64,000 nt of DNA from an uncultured Anaerolineales bacterium (GTDB taxonomy: Bacteria; Chloroflexota; Anaerolineae; Aggregatilineales; Aggregatilineaceae), in contig CAKZOB010000073.1 of NCBI GenBank assembly GCA_937135955.1, forward strand, positions 1 to 64,000. Reading direction: 5' to 3'. Shown here piece by piece: positions 4,249 to 14,568 of the stretch. Below the pieces are notes generated by a model. It had not been told where the DNA came from and did not search any database. It was given only the letters and a program-made list of their open reading frames with translations. The position numbers and the translations under genes were made by a program. The stretch's first letter is position 1. The number at the start of each line of letters is the position of its first letter.

Positions 4249-4320
4249 TAGCGGGGGCAGGATTCGAACCTGCGACCTCCGGGTTATGAGCCCGACGAGC
4301 TGCCACTGCTCTACCCCGCA
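4249..4320 (-). tRNA. tRNA-fMet (CAU anticodon), initiator
   Basis: A complete 72-nt cloverleaf is seen on the minus strand: D-stem GAGC/GCTC, anticodon loop CTCATAA, T-arm GCAGG-TTCGAAT-CCTGC. The anticodon stem carries three consecutive G-C pairs (GGG/CCC), the hallmark of bacterial initiator tRNA. Position 1 is T and position 72 is T, so the first acceptor pair is unpaired, as initiators require (usually C1-A72). The discriminator is A and CCA is not encoded. It has its own promoter (4332-4360) and terminator (4205-4239). Confidence 0.95.
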
Positions 4321-4471: not shown

Positions 4472-4734
4472 CCGGCTTCTGCCTGGGGTGCATTTCAGTT
4501 GAGTTCACGAGTACAAGCGAACTGAGGCGGATTTCTGAAGCCGTGCTCTGGGGTGAACTTTATGTGAAATACACCCCTCAAACTGAGTGCGAGCAAAGGC
4601 TCTCCGCGATTTGCTCAGTGCGGAGGCGTTTACCTCACCCCCGCTCGGCGCTCGCGCGAGGCTGGGGGTGAGGTCGACCACAGCGCAGCACACGGCCCGT
4701 CACACTTTGCACGCAGCCGTCCGGCTTCTGCCTG
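4472..4734. mobile_element. MITE-like element, copy A (235 bp between 14-bp direct repeats)
   Basis: CCGGCTTCTGCCTG occurs at 4472-4485 and again at 4721-4734, flanking 4486-4720. The left end begins GGGTGCATTTCAGTTGAGTTCAC, identical to the right-end inverted repeat of copy B (44239-44580). The interior matches copies B and C in reverse orientation, including the ACCTCACCCCC/GGGGGTGAGGT palindrome at 4632-4674. The outer ~55 bp of one end seen in copy B are missing here, so this copy is shortened. It encodes no protein; short open frames inside it are not genes. The right flank touches the ccmE promoter -35 box. Confidence 0.75.
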
Positions 4735-4763: not shown

Positions 4764-4832
4764 TCAGATTGATGGGCCATTTCTCATGACCGTATGCGTC
4801 GCAGGATCGTTGATTCAGAAAAGGGCTGGATC

Positions 4833-5381
4833 ATGGCCGAGCTTGAGTGGGAAAAAGAAAGCGTTTTGCTGGAAGGCCGCAAGGCTGCCAAACGTTCCGG
4901 TCGTTGGAAGTTCCTCATCGTGGGCATCGCCATCCTGGGCGCGATCGCCTATTTGCTCTTTTCGAGCACCCTGATTGGCGCGCGCTACTACGTCACCGTG
5001 GATGATCTGCTCAGCGATCCGGATATGCTCGGCAAGACGGTGCGCGTGTCGGGCGCGGTGGATGGCGACCCCATCTTCAACCAGGAGACGCACGAACTGC
5101 GCTTCGTCATCGCCAACATCCCCAACGACAACGACACCATCCGCAAGATGGGCGGGCTGGCCAAGGTGCTCTACATGGCGGTCAACGACCCCAACGCGAC
5201 GCGCCTGCAGGTGGTGGCCTACGACACCGACATCCCCGACCTGCTGCAACACGAAGCGCAGGCGATCATGTCCGGCAAGCTGCAGAAAGTGGACGGGCAG
5301 TATATCTTCTACGCCGAAGAGATCACCCTCAAATGCCCCACCAAATATCAGGAAGACGTGCCTAATCAGGTCGAATCCTGA
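4833..5381 (+). CDS. ccmE: CcmE heme chaperone, CxxxY variant
   Basis: 182 residues: short cytoplasmic N-terminus, one membrane anchor (about 27-49, LIVGIAILGAIAYLLF), then an OB-fold domain outside the membrane (YYVTVDDLL, GKTVRVSGAV, ending GQYIFYAEEITLKCPTKY). CcmE carries heme covalently from CcmABCD to the CcmFH ligase. Where classical CcmE has the heme-binding histidine in HxxxY (HDENY in E. coli), this protein has C168-P-T-K-Y172. Cysteine-type CcmE proteins are known from archaea and some sulfate reducers. The ATG at 4833 is preferred; an in-frame ATG at 4794 lacks a ribosome-binding site. The gene is followed by a terminator, so it appears to be its own transcription unit. Confidence 0.88.
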   Translation: MAELEWEKESVLLEGRKAAKRSGRWKFLIVGIAILGAIAYLLFSSTLIGARYYVTVDDLLSDPDMLGKTVRVSGAVDGDPIFNQETHELRFVIANIPNDNDTIRKMGGLAKVLYMAVNDPNATRLQVVAYDTDIPDLLQHEAQAIMSGKLQKVDGQYIFYAEEITLKCPTKYQEDVPNQVES

Positions 5382-5406
5382 CCGACTGTAGCGAACATCG
5401 AAGCGT

Positions 5407-5437
5407 AGCGCCGGGCCAGCTCCGGCGCTCTGTTTTT
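5407..5437 (+). terminator. Rho-independent terminator after ccmE
   Basis: AGCGCCGG (5407-5414) pairs with CCGGCGCT (5422-5429) around a 7-nt loop, followed by TCTGTTTTT (T-run 5433-5437). Confidence 0.85.
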
Positions 5438-5648
5438 ACTACCAGGGAAAATCGCTTCATCGGCGTCGGGAGTAGGCAAGGGCTGAGCGGCTTTGGTTAT
5501 AATCGTTGTGAGGGCCGGGGCGCGTGTGCCGCGGAAATAAATCGGGCGCTCTTGACCGCCAAATGTGGCAGTCCGTACCAATCTGGCATATTATTATGCC
5601 GGTTTTGAAACTTATATCATTGCACCCATCAGGCAGCGAGCGCGGCAG

Positions 5649-5743
5649 ACGATGGACCGGAGGCCCGGTAGGGGGTGCCTGCGGCAGTTGCTCAGAGCGC
5701 CTGCTGCCTGTGTGTATCTATGAGACGGGCCGGGGTCCATCGT
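5649..5743 (+). ncRNA. Predicted structured leader/RNA element upstream of ccmF
   Basis: ACGATGGACC (5649-5658) is perfectly complementary to GGTCCATCGT (5734-5743). Inside it, GGCCCG (5663-5668) pairs with CGGGCC (5726-5731), and GCGGCAG pairs with CTGCTGC in the centre around a short loop. Together these form a closed, multi-segment 95-nt fold ending 23 nt before the ccmF ATG. A TATAAT at 5498-5503 could be the -10 of the transcript, with only a weak -35. I do not recognise it as a known riboswitch or housekeeping RNA. The rest of the 385-bp gap (5438-5648) holds only a small GGCATA/TATGCC palindrome. Confidence 0.5.
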
Positions 5744-5766
5744 AGAGTTGAACGGAGCACAACGCC

Positions 5767-7875
5767 ATGATCGCTGAAGTCGGCATCATCACCACTGGAC
5801 TGGCGTTTGTCGCGGCGGTCTATGCCCTGGTTGCGGCACTGGCCGGGGCACAGGCGCGCCGCGATCGCTGGGTGATCAGCGCCCGCAATGCGGCCCTGAC
5901 CACCTTTCCACTGCTGTCTGTGGCCAACCTGGCCTTGATCTATGCCATGCTCAACCACGAATTCAGCATCGCCTACGTCTGGCAGACCTCCAGCCTCGAC
6001 ACGCCTCGTTTCTATCTGGTCACGGGGCTATGGGGCAGTCAGGCGGGGTCGTTGCTGTTCTGGTCGTGGCTGATGAGCGCGTTCACCTTCGCCGCGCTGC
6101 TGCTCAACTGGCAGTCCGAGCGCCGCCTGATGCCCGTAGTGATCGCAGTGACGATGGCGACGCTCGGTTTCTTTCTGATTCTGAATAACTTCATCGAGAA
6201 TCCCTTTGAGCGCTACTGGCAACTGCCCAGCGGGCGGATCGAGCCAGCCCTCTTCCCGCCCATTGACGGGGCGCAGGTCTTCCACCCCGCCGACGGGCAG
6301 GGCCTCAACCCGCTGCTGCGGCACTTCGGCATGGTCTTTCACCCGCCCATGCTCTATCTGGGCTTCGTGGGCTTCACCATCCCCTTTGCTTTCGCCATCG
6401 CCGCTCTGGTGAGCGGGCAACTCGGCCCGGGTTGGCTGCGGGCGACGCGGCGCTGGGCGCTGGTGGCCTGGTTGTTCCTCAGCCTGGGGCTGCTGTTGGG
6501 CGGGCGCTGGGCCTACGACGTGCTGGGCTGGGGCGGCTACTGGGGCTGGGACCCGGTGGAGAACGCCGCGCTGTTGCCCTGGCTGACGGGCACCGCCTTC
6601 CTGCACAGCGCAGTTGTGCAGGAAAAGCGGGGGATGCTTAAGTTCTGGAACATGCTGCTGATCATCCTGACCTATCTGCTGGTGGTGCTGGGCACCTTCG
6701 CCACGCGCAGCGGGGTAGTCAGCAGCGTGCATTCCTTCGCGGAGTCCGAAATTGGCCGACCCATGTTCGCCTTCCTGGCCCTGGCCATGATCGGCAGCTT
6801 TGCCCTGCTCTCCTGGCGACAGCAGCGCGGCGACCTGCGCGGCGTGGACGAACTGGATTCGCTGGTCAGCCGCGAGGCGTTCTTCCTGCTGAACAACTGG
6901 CTGTTCCTGGGGCTGACCGTTGTCGTGCTGTGGGGATCGTGGGCGGAGGCGATCACCACCATCCTGGTTGACCTGGGCCTGCGCAGCACAGTGATCAACC
7001 TGGGGCCGGACTATTACCCGCCGGTGACACGGTGGTTCCTGGCGGGCCTGTTCGTGCTGATGGGCATCGCGCCACTGGCCGCCTGGCGACACTCGACCGC
7101 CAAACGATTGGGCCGGGCGCTGATCGTGCCGGTGCTGCTGGCTGTGGCGGTGATGGTCGCGCTCTTCGTCACCGGCACGGACGACCTGTGGGCCGTGGGC
7201 GGCTATGGGCTGGTGGCCTTCGCTGGCTTCGCCACGCTCACCGAAATCTGGAAAGGGGTGCGGGCGCGGCACGGGCGCGGCGAGAACTACTGGAAGGCCT
7301 TCACCTCGCTCGTCGCCCGCGACCGGCGGCGCTATGGCGGCTACTTCATTCACCTGGGCATTGTGGTGCTGGGCATCGGCGTGATCGGCAGCTCGGCGTT
7401 TCAGGAAATCACCACGCAGACGCTCAATGTAGGCGAGCGCCTGAGCCTGCACGATTATGAGATGCAATACAACGGCCTGTTCGAAGCGCAAGCCGAAGAC
7501 GGGCGCACCATGGTCATCGCCCGCGCCACCGTCTACAAGGACGGCGAGATCGTCGGGCACATCCGCCCGCGCCGCGACATCTTCTTCACCACCGATCCCA
7601 TGACCGGGCAACGTACTCCGTCCACCAACATGAGCATCCCCGGCACCTACAGCACGCTGGCCGCGGACTTCTACGCCCGTATCGAGACGTGGGAAGGCAA
7701 CCGCGTGACCTTCCGCGTGTACTACAACCCCCTGATCAGCTTTGTCTGGTTGGGCGGGGTGGTGCTCATCGTGGGCACGCTGGTGGCGCTGTGGCCCTCG
7801 CGGCAACCGGAGCGCGCCGCCCAACGCGCAACGCTACCGGCGGGCGCGCGTGGCATCGAGGCAGGAGGTGACTAG
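5767..7875 (+). CDS. ccmF: CcmF, heme lyase component of cytochrome c System I
   Basis: 702-residue polytopic membrane protein of the CcmF/CcmC/CcsA superfamily. The tryptophan-rich heme-handling motif WGGYWGWDPVENA is at about residue 256. Histidines suited to heme ligation occur around it (RHFGMVFHPPMLYLG, FLHSAVVQEKRG, SVHSFAESEIG). A large C-terminal extracytoplasmic domain (about 530-660) and a last membrane span follow. CcmF with CcmH ligates heme from CcmE to apocytochrome CXXCH motifs. The start ATG has GGAG upstream. The gene ends TAG and ccmH begins at the next base. Length is somewhat above the usual ~650. Confidence 0.95.
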   Translation: MIAEVGIITTGLAFVAAVYALVAALAGAQARRDRWVISARNAALTTFPLLSVANLALIYAMLNHEFSIAYVWQTSSLDTPRFYLVTGLWGSQAGSLLFWSWLMSAFTFAALLLNWQSERRLMPVVIAVTMATLGFFLILNNFIENPFERYWQLPSGRIEPALFPPIDGAQVFHPADGQGLNPLLRHFGMVFHPPMLYLGFVGFTIPFAFAIAALVSGQLGPGWLRATRRWALVAWLFLSLGLLLGGRWAYDVLGWGGYWGWDPVENAALLPWLTGTAFLHSAVVQEKRGMLKFWNMLLIILTYLLVVLGTFATRSGVVSSVHSFAESEIGRPMFAFLALAMIGSFALLSWRQQRGDLRGVDELDSLVSREAFFLLNNWLFLGLTVVVLWGSWAEAITTILVDLGLRSTVINLGPDYYPPVTRWFLAGLFVLMGIAPLAAWRHSTAKRLGRALIVPVLLAVAVMVALFVTGTDDLWAVGGYGLVAFAGFATLTEIWKGVRARHGRGENYWKAFTSLVARDRRRYGGYFIHLGIVVLGIGVIGSSAFQEITTQTLNVGERLSLHDYEMQYNGLFEAQAEDGRTMVIARATVYKDGEIVGHIRPRRDIFFTTDPMTGQRTPSTNMSIPGTYSTLAADFYARIETWEGNRVTFRVYYNPLISFVWLGGVVLIVGTLVALWPSRQPERAAQRATLPAGARGIEAGGD

Positions 7876-8445
7876 ATGGCTCTGAGACAGCAACGCCATC
7901 GTGCGCGGCGCGTTCTACTGTTCGCGCTGGTTTGGTGGGTGGGTGTGCTGGTGCTCCTCTCCCTGAACATGCGCCCGGTTGCCGCGCAGGGGGGCGAGTT
8001 CGTGTTGCCGCCCGGCGTGACCTGGGACGATGTCAACAAGATCGCCCGCAAGATGTATTGCGACGTATGCGAGGGGATTCCCCTCGACGAGTGCGAGAGC
8101 GTGGCTTGTCGTCAGTGGCGCGAGGAGATCGCCCGTCAGTTGGGCGAAGGACGCACCGAAGACGAGATTATAGACTACTTCGTCGAGCGCTACGGGGCCG
8201 ACGTGGCCTCTGTCCCCCGCGACCGCACCGACCGCGCCATCGCCTTCGGGGTGCCGGTCGCCATCGCGTTGCTGCTGGCGCTGGTGGGGGTAGGTCAGGT
8301 ACGCCGGTTGCAGCGACGCGGTCAACAGGCAGGGGCTACCGCGCGGCGCTCGGCGGCGCGGCCTCAGGCACGCCCCGTGCCCGACGACGTTGATCCCGCT
8401 CTGCTCGAACGACTGCAACGTGAGTTGGAGGGGCTTGACGGATGA
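7876..8445 (+). CDS. ccmH: CcmH-like thiol reductase subunit with four cysteines
   Basis: 189 residues: N-terminal signal/anchor (about 11-37), a short extracytoplasmic helical domain and a second membrane span (about 133-149), as in CcmH/CcmL. CcmH reduces the apocytochrome CXXCH thiols and docks with CcmF. The usual LRCxxCQ motif appears as M-Y-C62-D-V-C65, followed by C73 and C78 in IPLDECESVAC, so a second cysteine pair is present. The helical motif WREEIARQLGEGRTEDEIIDYFVERYG is typical of the family. It abuts ccmF and overlaps ccmG by the ATGA at 8442-8445. Confidence 0.88.
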   Translation: MALRQQRHRARRVLLFALVWWVGVLVLLSLNMRPVAAQGGEFVLPPGVTWDDVNKIARKMYCDVCEGIPLDECESVACRQWREEIARQLGEGRTEDEIIDYFVERYGADVASVPRDRTDRAIAFGVPVAIALLLALVGVGQVRRLQRRGQQAGATARRSAARPQARPVPDDVDPALLERLQRELEGLDG

Positions 8446-9083
8446 GCGATCAGGACGTAGTGCAGCCGCAGGATCAGGCCGATCTGCCTGACTGGCTGGC
8501 CGAAGTGACCGGCGAGAAGACCTCCGCCGACCCCCAACAGGTGGCGCAGCGCTTCTCGACCTTCAACATCGTGGCCGGGCTGATCGTCGCCGCTCTGCTG
8601 GGCGTGATCGGCTATGCGCTCTATCAGCGCAGTCAGTCGCAGCCCACCGAAGGCCCTGCGCCGGACTTCACCGTCACCATGTATGACTTCGATCAGATCG
8701 CCATGAGCGGCCAGCGCGTGTCGCTGAAAGACCTGCGCGGTCAGGCGGTGGTCATTAATTTCTGGGCCAGCTTCTGCGTGCCCTGCCAGAAGGAAGCGCC
8801 CATGCTCGAACGGGTGTGGAACGACTACCGCGAGCGGGGGGTGGTCTTCCTGGGCATCAACACCGATGACCCGCTCAAGAACGCGCTGGATTACCTGGTC
8901 GAATACCAGATCACCTATCCCAACGCTCCCGATGTGGGCGAGCGTGTGGAAGAGGCCTACCGCATCACCGGCATTCCGGAGACGTTTGTGATCAACACGC
9001 GCGGCGAGATCGTGCAGCATTTTCTTTCGGAGCCGAACGAGCGCGATCTGCGGGCGGCGATCGATCGCGCGCTGGAGGGATAA
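8442..9083 (+). CDS. ccmG: CcmG/ResA-type membrane-anchored thioredoxin
   Basis: 213 residues: cytoplasmic N-terminus, one anchor (about 43-63), then a TlpA/ResA/DsbE thioredoxin domain. The active site W-A-S-F-C-V-P-C is at about residues 107-114, GINTDDPLKNALDYL follows, and the cis-Pro loop ITGIPETFVI is present. These proteins keep the apocytochrome cysteines reduced for heme attachment. The start ATG overlaps the ccmH stop (ATGA), indicating coupling. It could be called ResA or DsbE; placement in the ccm cluster favours CcmG. Confidence 0.9.
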   Translation: MSDQDVVQPQDQADLPDWLAEVTGEKTSADPQQVAQRFSTFNIVAGLIVAALLGVIGYALYQRSQSQPTEGPAPDFTVTMYDFDQIAMSGQRVSLKDLRGQAVVINFWASFCVPCQKEAPMLERVWNDYRERGVVFLGINTDDPLKNALDYLVEYQITYPNAPDVGERVEEAYRITGIPETFVINTRGEIVQHFLSEPNERDLRAAIDRALEG

Positions 9084-9145
9084 CCGCGCGTAGTTGGATT
9101 GGCCACGGCACGCCCGGCGTGCCCCCTACGGACGAAGTGTGACGC

Positions 9146-9514
9146 ATGTCCTTAGAAGCGACTGTTCTGGCTATTGTGCTGACAGCTTTGGTGGGATGGT
9201 TCACAATCCTGCCCCTGCTGGGCGGCGAAGAGACCCCATCCGCCCGGCAGGTGCGCGGAGCCACACCGCGTCAGCGTCAGGCTCTGGAAGTCCTGGAAGC
9301 GGAGAAATACCGCATTCTGCGCGCCATCCGCGACCTGGACTTCGACTACGACATGGACAAGCTGACCGACGAGGCTTACGCGGCTCAGCGTATCTATCTG
9401 ATCCGCTTGGCGCTGATCATCTTCAAGCGCATAGATGCCCTAGAAGCAGAAATCGCCAGTCAGCAGGCGCGCGTCGAAGAGGCGATCGCGGCGCTGCGGG
9501 CAGCTCGGAGATGA
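9146..9514 (+). CDS. Short CcmI-like membrane protein
   Basis: 122 residues: an N-terminal membrane span (about 5-25), then a charged helical region (RQRQALEVLEAEKYRILRAIRDLDFDYDMDKLTDEAYAAQR) and a C-terminal coiled-coil stretch. The motif E-K-x(5)-A-I-x-D-L-D-F-D-Y-x-x-x-K-L is shared with the N-terminal part of CcmI proteins, which present apocytochromes to CcmFH. The large TPR domain of proteobacterial CcmI is absent. The assignment rests on that segment and on position between ccmG and ccmA; many non-proteobacterial ccm clusters carry such a reduced form. Confidence 0.7.
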   Translation: MSLEATVLAIVLTALVGWFTILPLLGGEETPSARQVRGATPRQRQALEVLEAEKYRILRAIRDLDFDYDMDKLTDEAYAAQRIYLIRLALIIFKRIDALEAEIASQQARVEEAIAALRAARR

Positions 9515-9543
9515 GAGCGCAGCGGGATGAAAGGGAGCGTTGA

Positions 9544-9612
9544 ACCACAGAGGTCACAAAGAACGCAGAGGAGAGGCCCCATGGGCTCTGTGCTCTCTGT
9601 GTCCTCTGTGGT
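9544..9612. repeat. Intergenic inverted repeat ACCACAGAGG/CCTCTGTGGT
   Basis: ACCACAGAGG (9544-9553) and CCTCTGTGGT (9603-9612) are exact inverse copies, with further CAGAG/CTCTG arms inside. It fills the gap between the ccmI-like and cytochrome genes. It is not followed by a T-run and is best described as an inserted palindromic repeat. A sequence of similar character (ACCGCCGAGACGCCAGGGGCGCAAAG) lies at 32110-32135. Confidence 0.6.
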
Positions 9613-9676
9613 GAATTCGCCTCCAAGGGCTTCTGCAGGGGCGCTTTGTGACAGTGCACAGAATGTGTGAGAGAGT

Positions 9677-11539
9677 ATGAGCGAACGTCTGACGGTGTAT
9701 GGTCGTAGCATTGTCCTGGCAGGTGCGTTGCTGTTGCTGAGCGCCTGCGGTACCAACCTTTCGGGTGAGCCGGAAATCGTCCGTCAATCGGAAATCCTGG
9801 CGCTGCCTACAGCTACCCCTGCGGCGCTCACTGCGAGTCCGACCCCTGCACCGACGCAGGCGGTCGCTGGCGCAGAGGGCGAGAGTGAGCAGAGCAGCAC
9901 CCCCGCCGCGGCCAGTTCTGGCATTGATCTGACATCAGCGGACTACGACCTGGGCTTTCAGGTCTATATGCGCGAGTGCGCGGTCTGCCATGGAGCGGCC
10001 AACGGCGTCGGGCCGTCGCTGACGGCCATGCGCGACCGCGCCCCGACCGTGGTCGCCGGGCTGTCGGCGGAAGAATACCTGTGGCAATCTATCGTCGAGC
10101 CGGGCGCGTTTATCGTCGAGGGCTACCAGGATGTGATGCCCAAGGACTACGCTCAGACGCTCACCCAGGACGAGATCGCCGGATTGGTGCGCTTCATCCT
10201 GGAATTCGACCCCGCTACCATGATGGGCGGGTCACAGACCAGCGCGGGGACTGGCGAAGAGGGGCAAAGCAATTCTGGCCTGCCGCCCGCCATCGAGCAG
10301 GAAGAGACGCTGATAGTGCGCGGTCGGCTGATGCAGGGCACAGCGGGGGGCGAAGAGATTCCGGCGGGACTGCCCATGCAACTGTACGTGCTGGATGTGC
10401 ATGGCAACCTGGCGGGCGTTTACGAAGCGCAATCGGGCGAGGCGGGCGCGTTCATCTTCGAGAACATCGCTCGCGCGCCGGGTAACCTCTACCTGATCCA
10501 GGTGACTTACGATGGGATTGCCCAGGGGGCGCAGATTCCCGCCATCAACGGCGACGAGCAGACGCTCACCCAGGATGTCACCGTCTACGAGCACACGACC
10601 GATCCGGCCACCGTTGCCATCACCTGGGCGCAGATGCTGATCAACTACGCGCCCATCGAACAGTTCGGCCTGGAAGTGTGGTTGCGCCTGGAACTGGCCA
10701 ACACAGGCGATCGCATCGTCACCCTGCCGGAACGCGCTGGCCCGAACGACTGGTTCGCCTCGGTGGCCATCGAGTTGCCGCCGGCGGCCTTCGGCATTCA
10801 ACCCATGCAGGCCGAAGGCAGTCAGCGCTACGATGTGCAGGTGGAAAACGGCGTGCCCGTCGTGCGCGATACCTGGCCGCTGCGCCCTGGCCAGGTACAC
10901 ACGATCACCATCGCCTACTACCTGCCCTACGACAATGGTGCGGTGATCGATCAGGCGTTCAGCTATCCGGTGGTGGATGGCGCGGTGCTCTTGCCCAACG
11001 ACACGGTGACCCTGCGCAGCGCGCAGTTGGACGAGCAGGGCGCGTGGCGCTACCGCGTGTCGCATGGGGGCGTGCGCGTGACCGAACTGGCCCCGGACGA
11101 GGAGATCAACCCCAACAAAGACTTCACCCTGGTCAAGGAACATCCCCTCACCAAACCGCTGCCAACGGGCGAACGTCTCATCTTCGAACTGGTAGGACGT
11201 CCGACGCGCACCATTACGCTGGTGAGCACTTCCACGTCGCCCAGCAATTCCAGCACCAATACTGTGGCTGTTGCCCTGGCCGTGGCCGGAGCGACAGCGC
11301 TGGCCCTGGCCGGTGTGCTGTGGTATCGGCAGCGCAAGGCAGTGGCTCGGCTCCCATTGCCACGGGCAGCGGATGGCTGGCAGGAACCGCCCGCCAACGC
11401 CGACAAACAGACCCTGCTGCGGGCTGTCGCCGCGCTCGACGACGCCTACGAGACCGGCAAACTCGACGAGGAGACCTATCAGGAACGGCGCGCGCTGCTG
11501 TTGGAGCGCCTGTTGCCCCTGATGGATGAGGACGAATAG
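9677..11539 (+). CDS. Membrane-anchored c-type cytochrome lipoprotein inside the ccm cluster
   Basis: 620 residues. A lipobox L-S-A-C24 ends the signal peptide, followed by a Thr/Pro/Ala-rich linker (about 40-85). The heme c motif C101-A-V-C-H105 with a likely axial Met154 (DVMPKDY) forms a monoheme cytochrome c domain (about 88-178). A Gly-rich linker leads to a ~300-residue beta-rich extracytoplasmic region (about 205-510) that I cannot place. A membrane span (about 530-550) and a short C-terminal SHOCT-like helix (LDDAYETGKLDEETYQERRALLLERL) end the protein. It may be a client of the maturation system or an accessory electron carrier. Its place between ccmI-like and ccmA is unusual. Confidence 0.82.
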   Translation: MSERLTVYGRSIVLAGALLLLSACGTNLSGEPEIVRQSEILALPTATPAALTASPTPAPTQAVAGAEGESEQSSTPAAASSGIDLTSADYDLGFQVYMRECAVCHGAANGVGPSLTAMRDRAPTVVAGLSAEEYLWQSIVEPGAFIVEGYQDVMPKDYAQTLTQDEIAGLVRFILEFDPATMMGGSQTSAGTGEEGQSNSGLPPAIEQEETLIVRGRLMQGTAGGEEIPAGLPMQLYVLDVHGNLAGVYEAQSGEAGAFIFENIARAPGNLYLIQVTYDGIAQGAQIPAINGDEQTLTQDVTVYEHTTDPATVAITWAQMLINYAPIEQFGLEVWLRLELANTGDRIVTLPERAGPNDWFASVAIELPPAAFGIQPMQAEGSQRYDVQVENGVPVVRDTWPLRPGQVHTITIAYYLPYDNGAVIDQAFSYPVVDGAVLLPNDTVTLRSAQLDEQGAWRYRVSHGGVRVTELAPDEEINPNKDFTLVKEHPLTKPLPTGERLIFELVGRPTRTITLVSTSTSPSNSSTNTVAVALAVAGATALALAGVLWYRQRKAVARLPLPRAADGWQEPPANADKQTLLRAVAALDDAYETGKLDEETYQERRALLLERLLPLMDEDE

Positions 11540-11542
11540 CCC

Positions 11543-12280
11543 ATGCCCGTTACTGCCGACCGGATGATCGAAATCCGCAAGCTGACCAAGACCTTCGGTC
11601 TCAATCCGGTTTTGCGCGGGCTGGACCTGGACGTGCCGCGCGGACAATTCCTGACGTTGCTGGGGCCGAATGGCTCTGGCAAGACGACGCTGTTGCGCAT
11701 CCTGGGCGCGCTGGCCCGTCCGACAAGCGGGACAGTGCGCATCGGGGGCTGGGAGCTGCCCTCCGAAGCTGAATTCGTGCGGGCGCAACTCGGCGTAGTG
11801 AGCCATCAGCCGCTGCTCTACGACACGCTCACCGCCGAGGAAAACCTGCTCTTCTTCGCCCGGCTCTATCACCTGCCGCCGGAGACGCGCCGCGCCCGCG
11901 TGGTCGAGGTGTTGGAGCGGGTGGGGCTGGCCCGGCGCGCGCGCGACGTGGTGCAAACCTATAGCCGGGGGATGCAACAGCGGCTGGCCATCGCCCGCGC
12001 CATCCTGCACAACCCGGCCATCCTGCTGCTCGACGAGCCATACACCGGCCTGGATCAGGACGCAGCAGCGGTGCTCGACGACCTGCTGCGTCAGGTGGCG
12101 ACGGAAGGCCGCACCGTGATCATGACCACGCACGACCTGCGGCGCGGATATGCCCTGGCCGACCGGATCGCCATCCTCAGTCGCGGCAAGATTGCCTTCG
12201 ACGCGCCCTGCCGTGAGATCGATCCGGACGCGCTACCCACGCTCTACGCCGACGTGACCGGAGCCGTGACGACGCGATGA
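11543..12280 (+). CDS. ccmA: CcmA, heme exporter ATP-binding protein
   Basis: 245-residue ABC ATPase. Walker A GPNGSGKTTLLRI, Q-loop near GVVSHQPLLYDTLTAEENL, signature YSRGMQQRLAIARA, Walker B ILLLDEPYTGLD and switch His (TTHDLRRG) are all present. Position next to ccmB/ccmC identifies it as CcmA, whose ATP hydrolysis releases holo-CcmE from CcmC. It starts 3 bp after the cytochrome lipoprotein and overlaps ccmB by ATGA. An in-frame ATG at 11564 is an alternative start. Confidence 0.93.
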   Translation: MPVTADRMIEIRKLTKTFGLNPVLRGLDLDVPRGQFLTLLGPNGSGKTTLLRILGALARPTSGTVRIGGWELPSEAEFVRAQLGVVSHQPLLYDTLTAEENLLFFARLYHLPPETRRARVVEVLERVGLARRARDVVQTYSRGMQQRLAIARAILHNPAILLLDEPYTGLDQDAAAVLDDLLRQVATEGRTVIMTTHDLRRGYALADRIAILSRGKIAFDAPCREIDPDALPTLYADVTGAVTTR

Positions 12281-13044
12281 CTGTCAGTCCCGAACCTACC
12301 ACTTCTCCCGCTCCGGCGGAGACGGCGGCAACTCGCCCCGCGACGGCGAGCGCCCGCGCCCGGCAGCGCCTGACTCCTTTCTGGCGGGCGGTGGGAGCGA
12401 TCGCCTGGAAAGACCTGCGGGCCGAAATCCGCAGCCGCGAGCTGATCAACAGCATGGTGCTGTTCACCTTCATGACGGTGATGGTCTTCAGCCTGGCGCT
12501 GGAACTGGACAGAGAAGCGCGGCAGACGACGGTCGCCGGCGTGCTGTGGGTGACGGTCGTCTTCGCGGGGATGATCGGGCTGAGCCGCAGCCTGGCCGCC
12601 GAAAAAGACCGCGGCAGCCTGGATGCGCTGTTGCTGGCCCCCATTGACCGGGGCGCGCTCTTCTTCGGCAAGATGATCGGCAATCTGCTCTTCGTGCTGG
12701 TGATCGCGCTGGTGTTGCTGGTGCTGCTCACCGTGTTGTTCAACGTCACGCTGCTCAAACCGCTGTTGGTGTTGGTGGTGTTGCTGGGGAGCATCGGCTT
12801 CACTGCCGCGGGGACTCTGCTCTCCAGCATGACGGTACACGCTCGCGCCCGCGAAGCCCTGCTGCCGATCATCCTGATGCCGGTCGTGTTGCCGGTGTTG
12901 ATCAGCGCGGTGCGCGCCAGTACGACCATCCTGGAGGGGCTGCCGCGCGACGACTGGTTGCCCTGGCTGCAACTGCTGGCCGTGGCCGACGTGATCTTCC
13001 TGGCGGCGGGCTACGGCCTGTTCGATTACGTAGTCGAGGAGTGA
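12277..13044 (+). CDS. ccmB: CcmB, heme exporter permease
   Basis: 255 residues with six predicted membrane spans after a ~40-residue Pro/Ala-rich N-terminal extension. The family motif AWKDLRAEIRSRE is followed by SLALELDREARQTTVAGVLWVTVVFAGMIGLSRSLAAEKDRGSLDALLLAP, very typical of CcmB. It forms the transporter-like complex with CcmA and CcmC that loads heme onto CcmE. The start ATG overlaps the ccmA stop. Confidence 0.93.
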   Translation: MTVSPEPTTSPAPAETAATRPATASARARQRLTPFWRAVGAIAWKDLRAEIRSRELINSMVLFTFMTVMVFSLALELDREARQTTVAGVLWVTVVFAGMIGLSRSLAAEKDRGSLDALLLAPIDRGALFFGKMIGNLLFVLVIALVLLVLLTVLFNVTLLKPLLVLVVLLGSIGFTAAGTLLSSMTVHARAREALLPIILMPVVLPVLISAVRASTTILEGLPRDDWLPWLQLLAVADVIFLAAGYGLFDYVVEE

Positions 13045-13047
13045 GTG

Positions 13048-13120
13048 AGCTATCAGCCATCAGCTTTCAGCTGAAGAAACAAGACCTTGACGTTCTTGCT
13101 GACTGCTGCCGCTGATAGCT
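13048..13120. repeat. Intergenic inverted repeat AGCTATCAGC/GCTGATAGCT
   Basis: Exact 10-bp arms at 13048-13057 and 13111-13120, with additional CAGCTTTCAGCTG inside. It fills the ccmB-ccmC gap. Sequences of the same CAGC/GTCAG-rich type occur at 21594-21695 and around 42855-42890. Confidence 0.6.
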
Positions 13121-13152
13121 GACCACTATATGCTTTCAAGGAGTCTGCCGAC

Positions 13153-13869
13153 ATGACGTACTCTGCGACACGCACCCGCATCCTGCGCACGCTGACGGCA
13201 GCCGCTGCGGTGCTGTTCGTCATCGGCCTGTATCTGGCGCTGTTCTGGGTCGGGCCGGAAAAGCAACAGGGCGCGGCACAACGCATCTTCTACATACACC
13301 TGGGATCGTTTCTGGGAGCGTTCATTGCCTTTGCCGCAACGGTAGCGGGCGGCATCGCCTACCTGCGCACGCGCGACCCCAAATGGGACACCTTCGGCCT
13401 GGCCAATGTCGAGATCGGGCTGGGGATGTCGGCCATCACCATCGTCACCGGCATGGCCTGGGCGCGCCCCATCTGGAATACCTGGTGGACGTGGGACCCG
13501 CGTCTGACCAGCATCACCATCATGTGGCTGGCCTATGCCGCCTACCTGATGCTGCGCTCTGGCATTGAGGATGTGGAACGGCGGCGGCGCTTTGCTGCGG
13601 TCTATGGCATCGTTGCTTTCGCCAGCGTGCTGTTCACCATCATCATCATCCGCGTGCGTCCCGATACCATTCACCCTGTGGTCGTCGGCCCCAGCCAGGC
13701 CGATCCAACCGGCAGCTTCGATGTCACCGGGCGCATCCGCGATACGCTCTTCTTCAACCTGTTCTCGTTCGCCGTGCTCACTGTGGTCTTGATCTGGTAC
13801 CGCATCCGCCTGGAAAACCTGGCGCAGTATGTGACACGGCGCAAGCTCGAAGTGCTGTCCGAGCTGTAG
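13153..13869 (+). CDS. ccmC: CcmC, heme-handling protein for CcmE loading
   Basis: 238 residues, six membrane spans, CcmC/CcsA superfamily. The tryptophan motif NTWWTWDPRLTSITIMWLAY (about residues 110-129) holds heme on the outer face. Flanking His (IFYIHLGSF; DTIHPVVVGPSQ) are the expected axial ligands. CcmC transfers heme to CcmE. The ATG at 13153 is preceded by AAGGAG. Confidence 0.93.
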   Translation: MTYSATRTRILRTLTAAAAVLFVIGLYLALFWVGPEKQQGAAQRIFYIHLGSFLGAFIAFAATVAGGIAYLRTRDPKWDTFGLANVEIGLGMSAITIVTGMAWARPIWNTWWTWDPRLTSITIMWLAYAAYLMLRSGIEDVERRRRFAAVYGIVAFASVLFTIIIIRVRPDTIHPVVVGPSQADPTGSFDVTGRIRDTLFFNLFSFAVLTVVLIWYRIRLENLAQYVTRRKLEVLSEL

Positions 13870-14180: not shown

Positions 14181-14189
14181 TCGCTCAGG

Positions 14190-14568
14190 TGGAGGTGGGG
14201 GGAATTGAACCCCCGTCCGCAAGATTCGGGCACAAACGTCTACAAGCTTAGCCAGCTTCTCAGTTTCGCGCGAGGCAACCCAAACTGGCGGAGGTTGTCC
14301 GCGCGCTAGCCGATGAGTCTTAGCTGCTGCGTATCGGCGTCAGTGCAGCGCATCCTGTCCTTTGTGACGCCTGCTTGCCGCCCGGACAGGAGACGGTCGG
14401 GGCAGACGGATACCCCGCAGGGTATCGGTTTGTCCGCCTGGCGACTACGCGGCCAGGGCGAGACGGGAAGTGCTGTTGGCACTTATAGGTGTGCTCTGGA
14501 TTAACGAGGGTAGAGCGCCTCGGCTTGCAGTCTGTGACCAACCTCCCACGTCGAAGCCAGTCACCCCC
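14190..14568 (-). ncRNA. ssrA: Transfer-messenger RNA (tmRNA)
   Basis: On the minus strand the RNA begins GGGGGTGACTGGCTTCGACG, the conserved tmRNA 5' end. It ends with the T-arm GGGGG-TTCAATT-CCCCC and acceptor CACCTCC plus A; the 5' GGGGGTG and 3' CACCTCC halves pair (one G-U). CCA is not encoded. The tag frame (14480-14445) after ATAAGT reads ANSTSRLALAA and then TAG, with the typical LALAA end that targets proteins to ClpXP. Length 379 nt is normal. tmRNA rescues stalled ribosomes. Confidence 0.97.

Follow-up and report, generated by a model that had tools for sequence, protein, structure and literature searches.

Directly upstream of ccmF, positions 5627-5712 of the window (the whole stretch of 64,000 nucleotides analysed here, from an uncultured Anaerolineales bacterium) contain a conserved element with the pairing pattern of a structured RNA, found in nine genomes of a single family and always in front of the same gene. 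We read it as a family-restricted structured leader of the ccmF mRNA that would be recognised by a trans-acting factor and would tune the ccmF-ccmH-ccmG mRNA, a reading to which we give about an even chance of being correct. The element belongs to no Rfam family and is in that sense uncatalogued. The features used below are the following:

5407-5429, + strand: intrinsic-terminator-like hairpin after ccmE (scan: one found, 0.5 expected)
5565-5594, + strand: promoter-like site (GTGGCA, 18 nt, TATTAT), consensus match only
5627-5712, + strand: conserved leader RNA element, as delimited by the covariance-model match
5630-5643, + strand: 5' arm of the basal stem P1, CAGGCAGCGAGCGC, its first 8 bases identical in nine of nine sequences
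5649-5658, + strand: 5' arm of the 10-bp stem of the original prediction, a competing fold specific to the window
5664-5679, + strand: apex, i.e., CCC, the loop GG-T-AG-G-run, followed by the 3' strand of the apical stem, from the hand-made structural alignment
5697-5710, + strand: 3' arm of P1, GCGCCTGCTGCCTG, from alignment and fold
5734-5743, + strand: 3' arm of the same 10-bp stem, competing fold
5767-7875, + strand: ccmF (cytochrome c-type biogenesis protein; PF16327, PF01578, TIGR00353)
7876-9083, + strand: ccmH-type and thioredoxin-like (ccmG/ResA-type) genes, whose spacing makes a shared unit with ccmF probable

The original prediction had drawn, at 5649-5743, a perfect 10-bp outer stem enclosing an inner 6-bp stem and a central 7-bp hairpin, and had taken it for a cis-acting leader or a processed small RNA. 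The outer stem lies exactly where it was placed, with 5649-5658 (ACGATGGACC) pairing with 5734-5743 and its end 23 nt before the ccmF ATG (5767), and the inner stem was also recovered (5662-5667 with 5726-5731). The central hairpin is interrupted, and there is no further perfect stem of at least 6 bp within 5649-5743. The leader stretch is non-coding, as had been stated, and single-copy in its own genome. Of 20,000 surrogates of the 190-nt leader drawn from a first-order Markov model, 210 (about 1%) held a perfect stem of at least 10 bp within 100 nt, and 5640-5770 folds with moderately greater stability than its shuffles (z of -2.20).

The comparison with relatives gave a different picture of the fold. 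In G002, the closest relative, whose CcmF is 96% identical over the 456 residues present, the conserved block described below is kept and the perfect 10-bp stem is missing, although by eye nine of the ten pairs remain possible with its downstream arm. The prediction held for a folded non-coding RNA preceding ccmF in the position of a cis-acting leader. The fold as drawn failed the refuting condition set with it, absence from close relatives, whereas a different fold in the same place withstands it. A covariance model built from the homologous ccmF upstream regions, as had been proposed, did recover this element. Its extent also differs, since the 5' arm of the conserved stem (5630-5643) lies upstream of the predicted start at 5649. 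The outer stem of the original prediction and the conserved hairpin are mutually exclusive unless they form a pseudoknot.

The conserved block of the same-family ccmF upstream regions reads ACAGGCAGCRAGCGCGGCAG ... CCC-RG-n-AG-G-run ... GCYTGCTGCYTG and starts upstream of 5649. Modelled on nine sequences, the element is predicted to fold into an extended, imperfect hairpin about 86-95 nt in length, with an 86-nt core in the window. Its basal stem P1 is nearly invariant, CAGGCAGC-GA-GCGC pairing with GCGC-CU-GCUGCCUG, and the apex follows the fixed pattern CCC-[G/A]G-n-AG-(G-run). In the hand-made structural alignment, the CCC, the G in second position of the loop, the AG and the GGGG of the apex are invariant in all nine sequences, and unpaired letters are conserved both at the apex and beside P1. 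The middle helix covaries, its pairing being kept while the letters change. When the elements were folded singly, the outer stem was common to all nine and the apical CCC:GGG stem was found in most of them, the minimum-energy fold of L021 deviating in the interior.

MAFFT by itself misaligned the interior, and a structure-based alignment was used instead: nine rows were aligned by hand, with N padding that kept MAFFT from altering them, and gave the model R1. The same nine rows realigned without padding (alignment A3) gave the model R2. R1 gives the window element 49.0 bits and R2 gives it 72.2 bits; its sequence is itself among the nine training rows. On A3, 85.3% of the cells were paired vs. 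76.2% in shuffled alignments, 28 cells were changed on both sides vs. 14.3, and the covariation score was 0.269 vs. 0.155, none of 500 shuffles reaching the observed value in any of the three measures; sliding the structure by 1-3 columns lowered the score to 0.141 or less. Two weaker measures point the same way, namely the pairs changed on both sides (13 of 32 vs. 9.6 shuffled, reached in 7 of 500, with an alignment that was fitted to the structure) and the further pair types (30 vs. 26.0, reached in 52 of 500). All these covariation figures rest on an alignment fitted to the structure by hand. On A3, the element shows the compensatory changes sought in a conserved structured leader RNA. Twelve of the 13 doubly changed pairs sit in the middle or apical helix, and P1 contributes almost no covariation because it is nearly invariant. 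The stability z of the element is negative in all nine sequences (-1.39 to -4.16; weakest in L017, -1.39, and L016, -1.65), a range that overlaps that of control segments taken upstream and in coding sequence (+1.34 to -2.53), and the interior alone is modestly stable (mean z of -1.13).

A search of 154 genomes of the order with R1 gave nine matches, one per genome, all of them within family f1 (9 of 18 genomes; 0 of 136 elsewhere), distributed over four genera and placed directly upstream of ccmF. The same fold therefore precedes the same gene in several species. R2, applied to 40 relatives with laxer filtering, returned the same nine and, in the own genome, one further weak match (E 0.86), which we take as chance. 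A search with the CcmF protein was positive in 96 of 101 genomes. The ccmF start is readable in 14 of the 18 family genomes, and nine of these carry the element. It is absent in full form from the other five (G007, G010, G012, G014 and G015), and it is therefore dispensable. G014 retains a P1-like stem only (14.8 bits). By eye, G010 has an apex-like string, CCCGGAGGGGG, about 35-50 nt before ccmF without a conserved P1, possibly an eroded element. In the CcmF tree, the genomes without the element fall in two places among the carriers, the support at several forks being only 83-92, and this is consistent with one gain before the radiation of the family and at least two losses.

Beyond the order, R1 on 396 genomes of the class found only G000 and G003 (E up to 0.3), which both belong to the window's genus, and R2 on 400 genomes of the phylum added only G661 (34.6 bits); the strict filters of both searches can miss weak relatives. 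G661 was rejected as a member: the G-rich loop is missing from its match, which is nearly self-complementary on both strands and follows the end of a gene that we take to be mreB-like. A DNA pattern scan of genome contigs gave 17 loci, five of which are Anaerolineae ccmF leaders already among the nine; their records are all Chloroflexota MAGs, four of them under the title Anaerolineae or Anaerolineales and one under Thermoflexus sp. At the other 12, R1 found nothing at the pattern site at E up to 5, and one unrelated weak match lay elsewhere (E 0.93). In another family of the order, two genomes (G027 and G020; loci L031 and L033) show a hairpin, GGCAGCAGGCG ... CGTCTGCTGTCT, about 100-150 nt before ccmF, with P1-like sequence, a short interior and a weak model match (12.9 bits for L033), which may be a distant or a convergent leader.

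The position of the element relative to its surroundings is also similar. In all nine genomes P1 is preceded by a TATNAT box at a distance of 38-51 nt. From the P1 start to the start codon there are 131-189 nt in the window's genus and 110-116 nt outside it. The element precedes ccmF in all nine, even without an adjacent ccmE: ccmE is within the fetched upstream flank in five (the window, L010, L022, L023 and L024) and not in that of L016 (flank of only 506 nt), L017, L018 or L021. To judge from its sequence, the hairpin at 5407-5429 would separate ccmE from the ccmF unit. The separate small RNA that had been offered as an option is less likely, since the distance to the promoter-like box is similar throughout, the element remains immediately in front of ccmF and, in the window, it is not followed by a terminator-like site.

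In the full leader of the window, the two folds compete. For 5601-5790, the originally drawn fold reaches -75.0 kcal/mol vs. -73.0 kcal/mol for the conserved one, and the probability of P1 is 0.02. Whole-leader folds give P1 a probability of at least 0.85 (7 or 8 of 8 pairs) in seven of the nine sequences, and P1 is disfavoured only in the window and in L016 (probability of 0.00), whose partner region differs from that of the window. The two folds could be imagined as a bistable switch, in which P1 forms first and is displaced by the 10-bp stem once 5743 has been transcribed. The folding of the growing window transcript agrees with this, the probability of P1 being 1.0 at ends 5713, 5720 and 5733 and 0.002 at 5743, as does the fact that P1 is outcompeted in L016 too. 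However, G002 strongly retains P1 (-84.4 kcal/mol with it vs. -73.1 without, favoured by 11 kcal/mol), in the leaders of the other genera of the family P1 is followed by only about 25-30 nt, not enough for such a partner, and the 2 kcal/mol gap in the window falls inside the error of the model, so that we consider a switch very unlikely.

For the conserved hairpin we propose the following course. Transcription would probably start shortly past the TATNAT box, near 5590, and the leader RNA would then fold into the sequence-fixed P1, the middle helix defined by pairing only and the fixed apex CCC-RG-n-AG-GGGG. A trans factor, a protein or another ligand, would recognise the base and the apex, and once bound, it would adjust the translation or the stability of the ccmF-ccmH-ccmG mRNA. 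We infer such recognition as the likeliest function from the contrast between the base and apex, whose sequence is fixed, and the middle, where only the pairing is. We rank it ahead of a stabiliser or standby site in the 5'-UTR, and this in turn ahead of a metabolite riboswitch.

The leader position would also suit a structural element of the 5'-UTR without a specific ligand, serving for mRNA protection or processing (an RNase target or 5' stabiliser) or as a ribosome standby site with a Shine-Dalgarno-like G-rich loop. The anti-Shine-Dalgarno sequence of 16S rRNA is CCUCC, and the A-G5 run of the loop could pair with it with one G-U. The lack of a conserved expression platform also speaks for this reading: the accessibility of the Shine-Dalgarno sequence did not change consistently with P1 across the leaders, and the window's leader has no terminator. 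A stabiliser would need pairing alone, however, and the letters of base and apex are fixed, which makes this reading unlikely, if the most serious rival. A metabolite riboswitch with the hairpin as its aptamer, responsive to heme or to some other cofactor used in cytochrome c assembly, is suggested by the heme-handling CcmF encoded downstream, by unpaired letters that are conserved beside P1 and at the apex, and by the two nearly iso-energetic folds of the window. It is nonetheless improbable, since the element is a single unbranched hairpin without a shared switch partner, its alternative fold is not common to the relatives, it is confined to one gene context in one family and nothing points specifically to heme. 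That it would be the first riboswitch responsive to heme or cytochrome assembly, its fixed apex and P1-flanking letters binding heme or a related cofactor and coupling heme supply to the CcmF/H/G heme-ligation module, is a long shot. We likewise give very little credence to an element acting as DNA, as an inverted-repeat regulator site, or to a decayed mobile or repeat element. The arms of P1 do form an inverted repeat of nearly invariant sequence, but the element is single-copy in its own genome, keeps its pairing in the middle helix and lies downstream of the promoter-like box.

Several known classes were also considered and rejected. No short ORF is common to the leaders, whose frames differ, and two of the nine have no ORF of at least 12 codons, which speaks against a leader-peptide attenuator; the window leader has a GTG frame ending on a TGA that overlaps the ccmF ATG, absent from the relatives as a common frame. 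As an intrinsic terminator or attenuator it fails in the window, where no T-run after P1 satisfied the scan rule and the sole terminator-like site in 5300-5850 is the one at 5407. In some relatives the apical UUCCC could, by eye, serve as an anti-Shine-Dalgarno and pair with GGGAG/GGAG, but the window and L022 do not fit this. The single copy per genome speaks against a repeat or mobile element. Rfam 15 at gathering thresholds, run on the whole window, found only a tmRNA (14187-14568, - strand) and a tRNA gene (4249-4320, - strand), both away from the leader; at permissive thresholds, the window and two relatives gave no match or weak matches far below the gathering scores. The Rfam check proposed at the outset accordingly gave no family for the leader.

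The element resembles the leader motifs found by comparative genomics (104 motifs, PMC2864571) in being non-coding, with a conserved fold, one functional gene class and no assigned ligand, and differs from them in its much narrower occurrence (nine genomes of one family) and in having no Rfam match. That paper lists Chloroflexi motifs, and the terms 'ccm', 'cytochrome' and 'heme' occur 0 times in its main text. It is like a riboswitch in its leader position, in its fixed letters at specific places and, in the window, in its alternative fold, and unlike one in having neither a multi-stem aptamer nor a shared expression platform. According to PMC9971707, heme riboswitch classes were conspicuously absent from the validated list in 2022. 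With an intrinsic terminator or attenuator it shares a G+C-rich hairpin ahead of a gene, but by the scan rule no T-run follows P1. In the literature searched, itself a partial sample, no ccm leader RNA, heme riboswitch or heme-binding RNA of this kind was found; an earlier description is possible, a 2017 study, reportedly a set of 224 motifs, lying outside the coverage. Control of cytochrome c maturation at the RNA level is hardly described in that sample, and a factor or ligand, if validated, would extend the regulatory RNAs of Chloroflexota by one class, notable if heme were involved. At present, the candidate motif is solid but narrow, and its core of 86 nt is defined.

The leader belongs to a cytochrome c maturation cluster (4794-13869) that contains ccmE, ccmF, ccmH, a thioredoxin-like gene, a gene for a cytochrome-c-domain protein and a ccmA-like ATPase gene, and the next two ORFs look, by eye only, ccmB- and ccmC-like. 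In the intergenic region upstream of ccmE, at 4630-4680 of the window, an inverted repeat, CTCACCCCC ... GGGGGTGAGG, was also noticed by eye.
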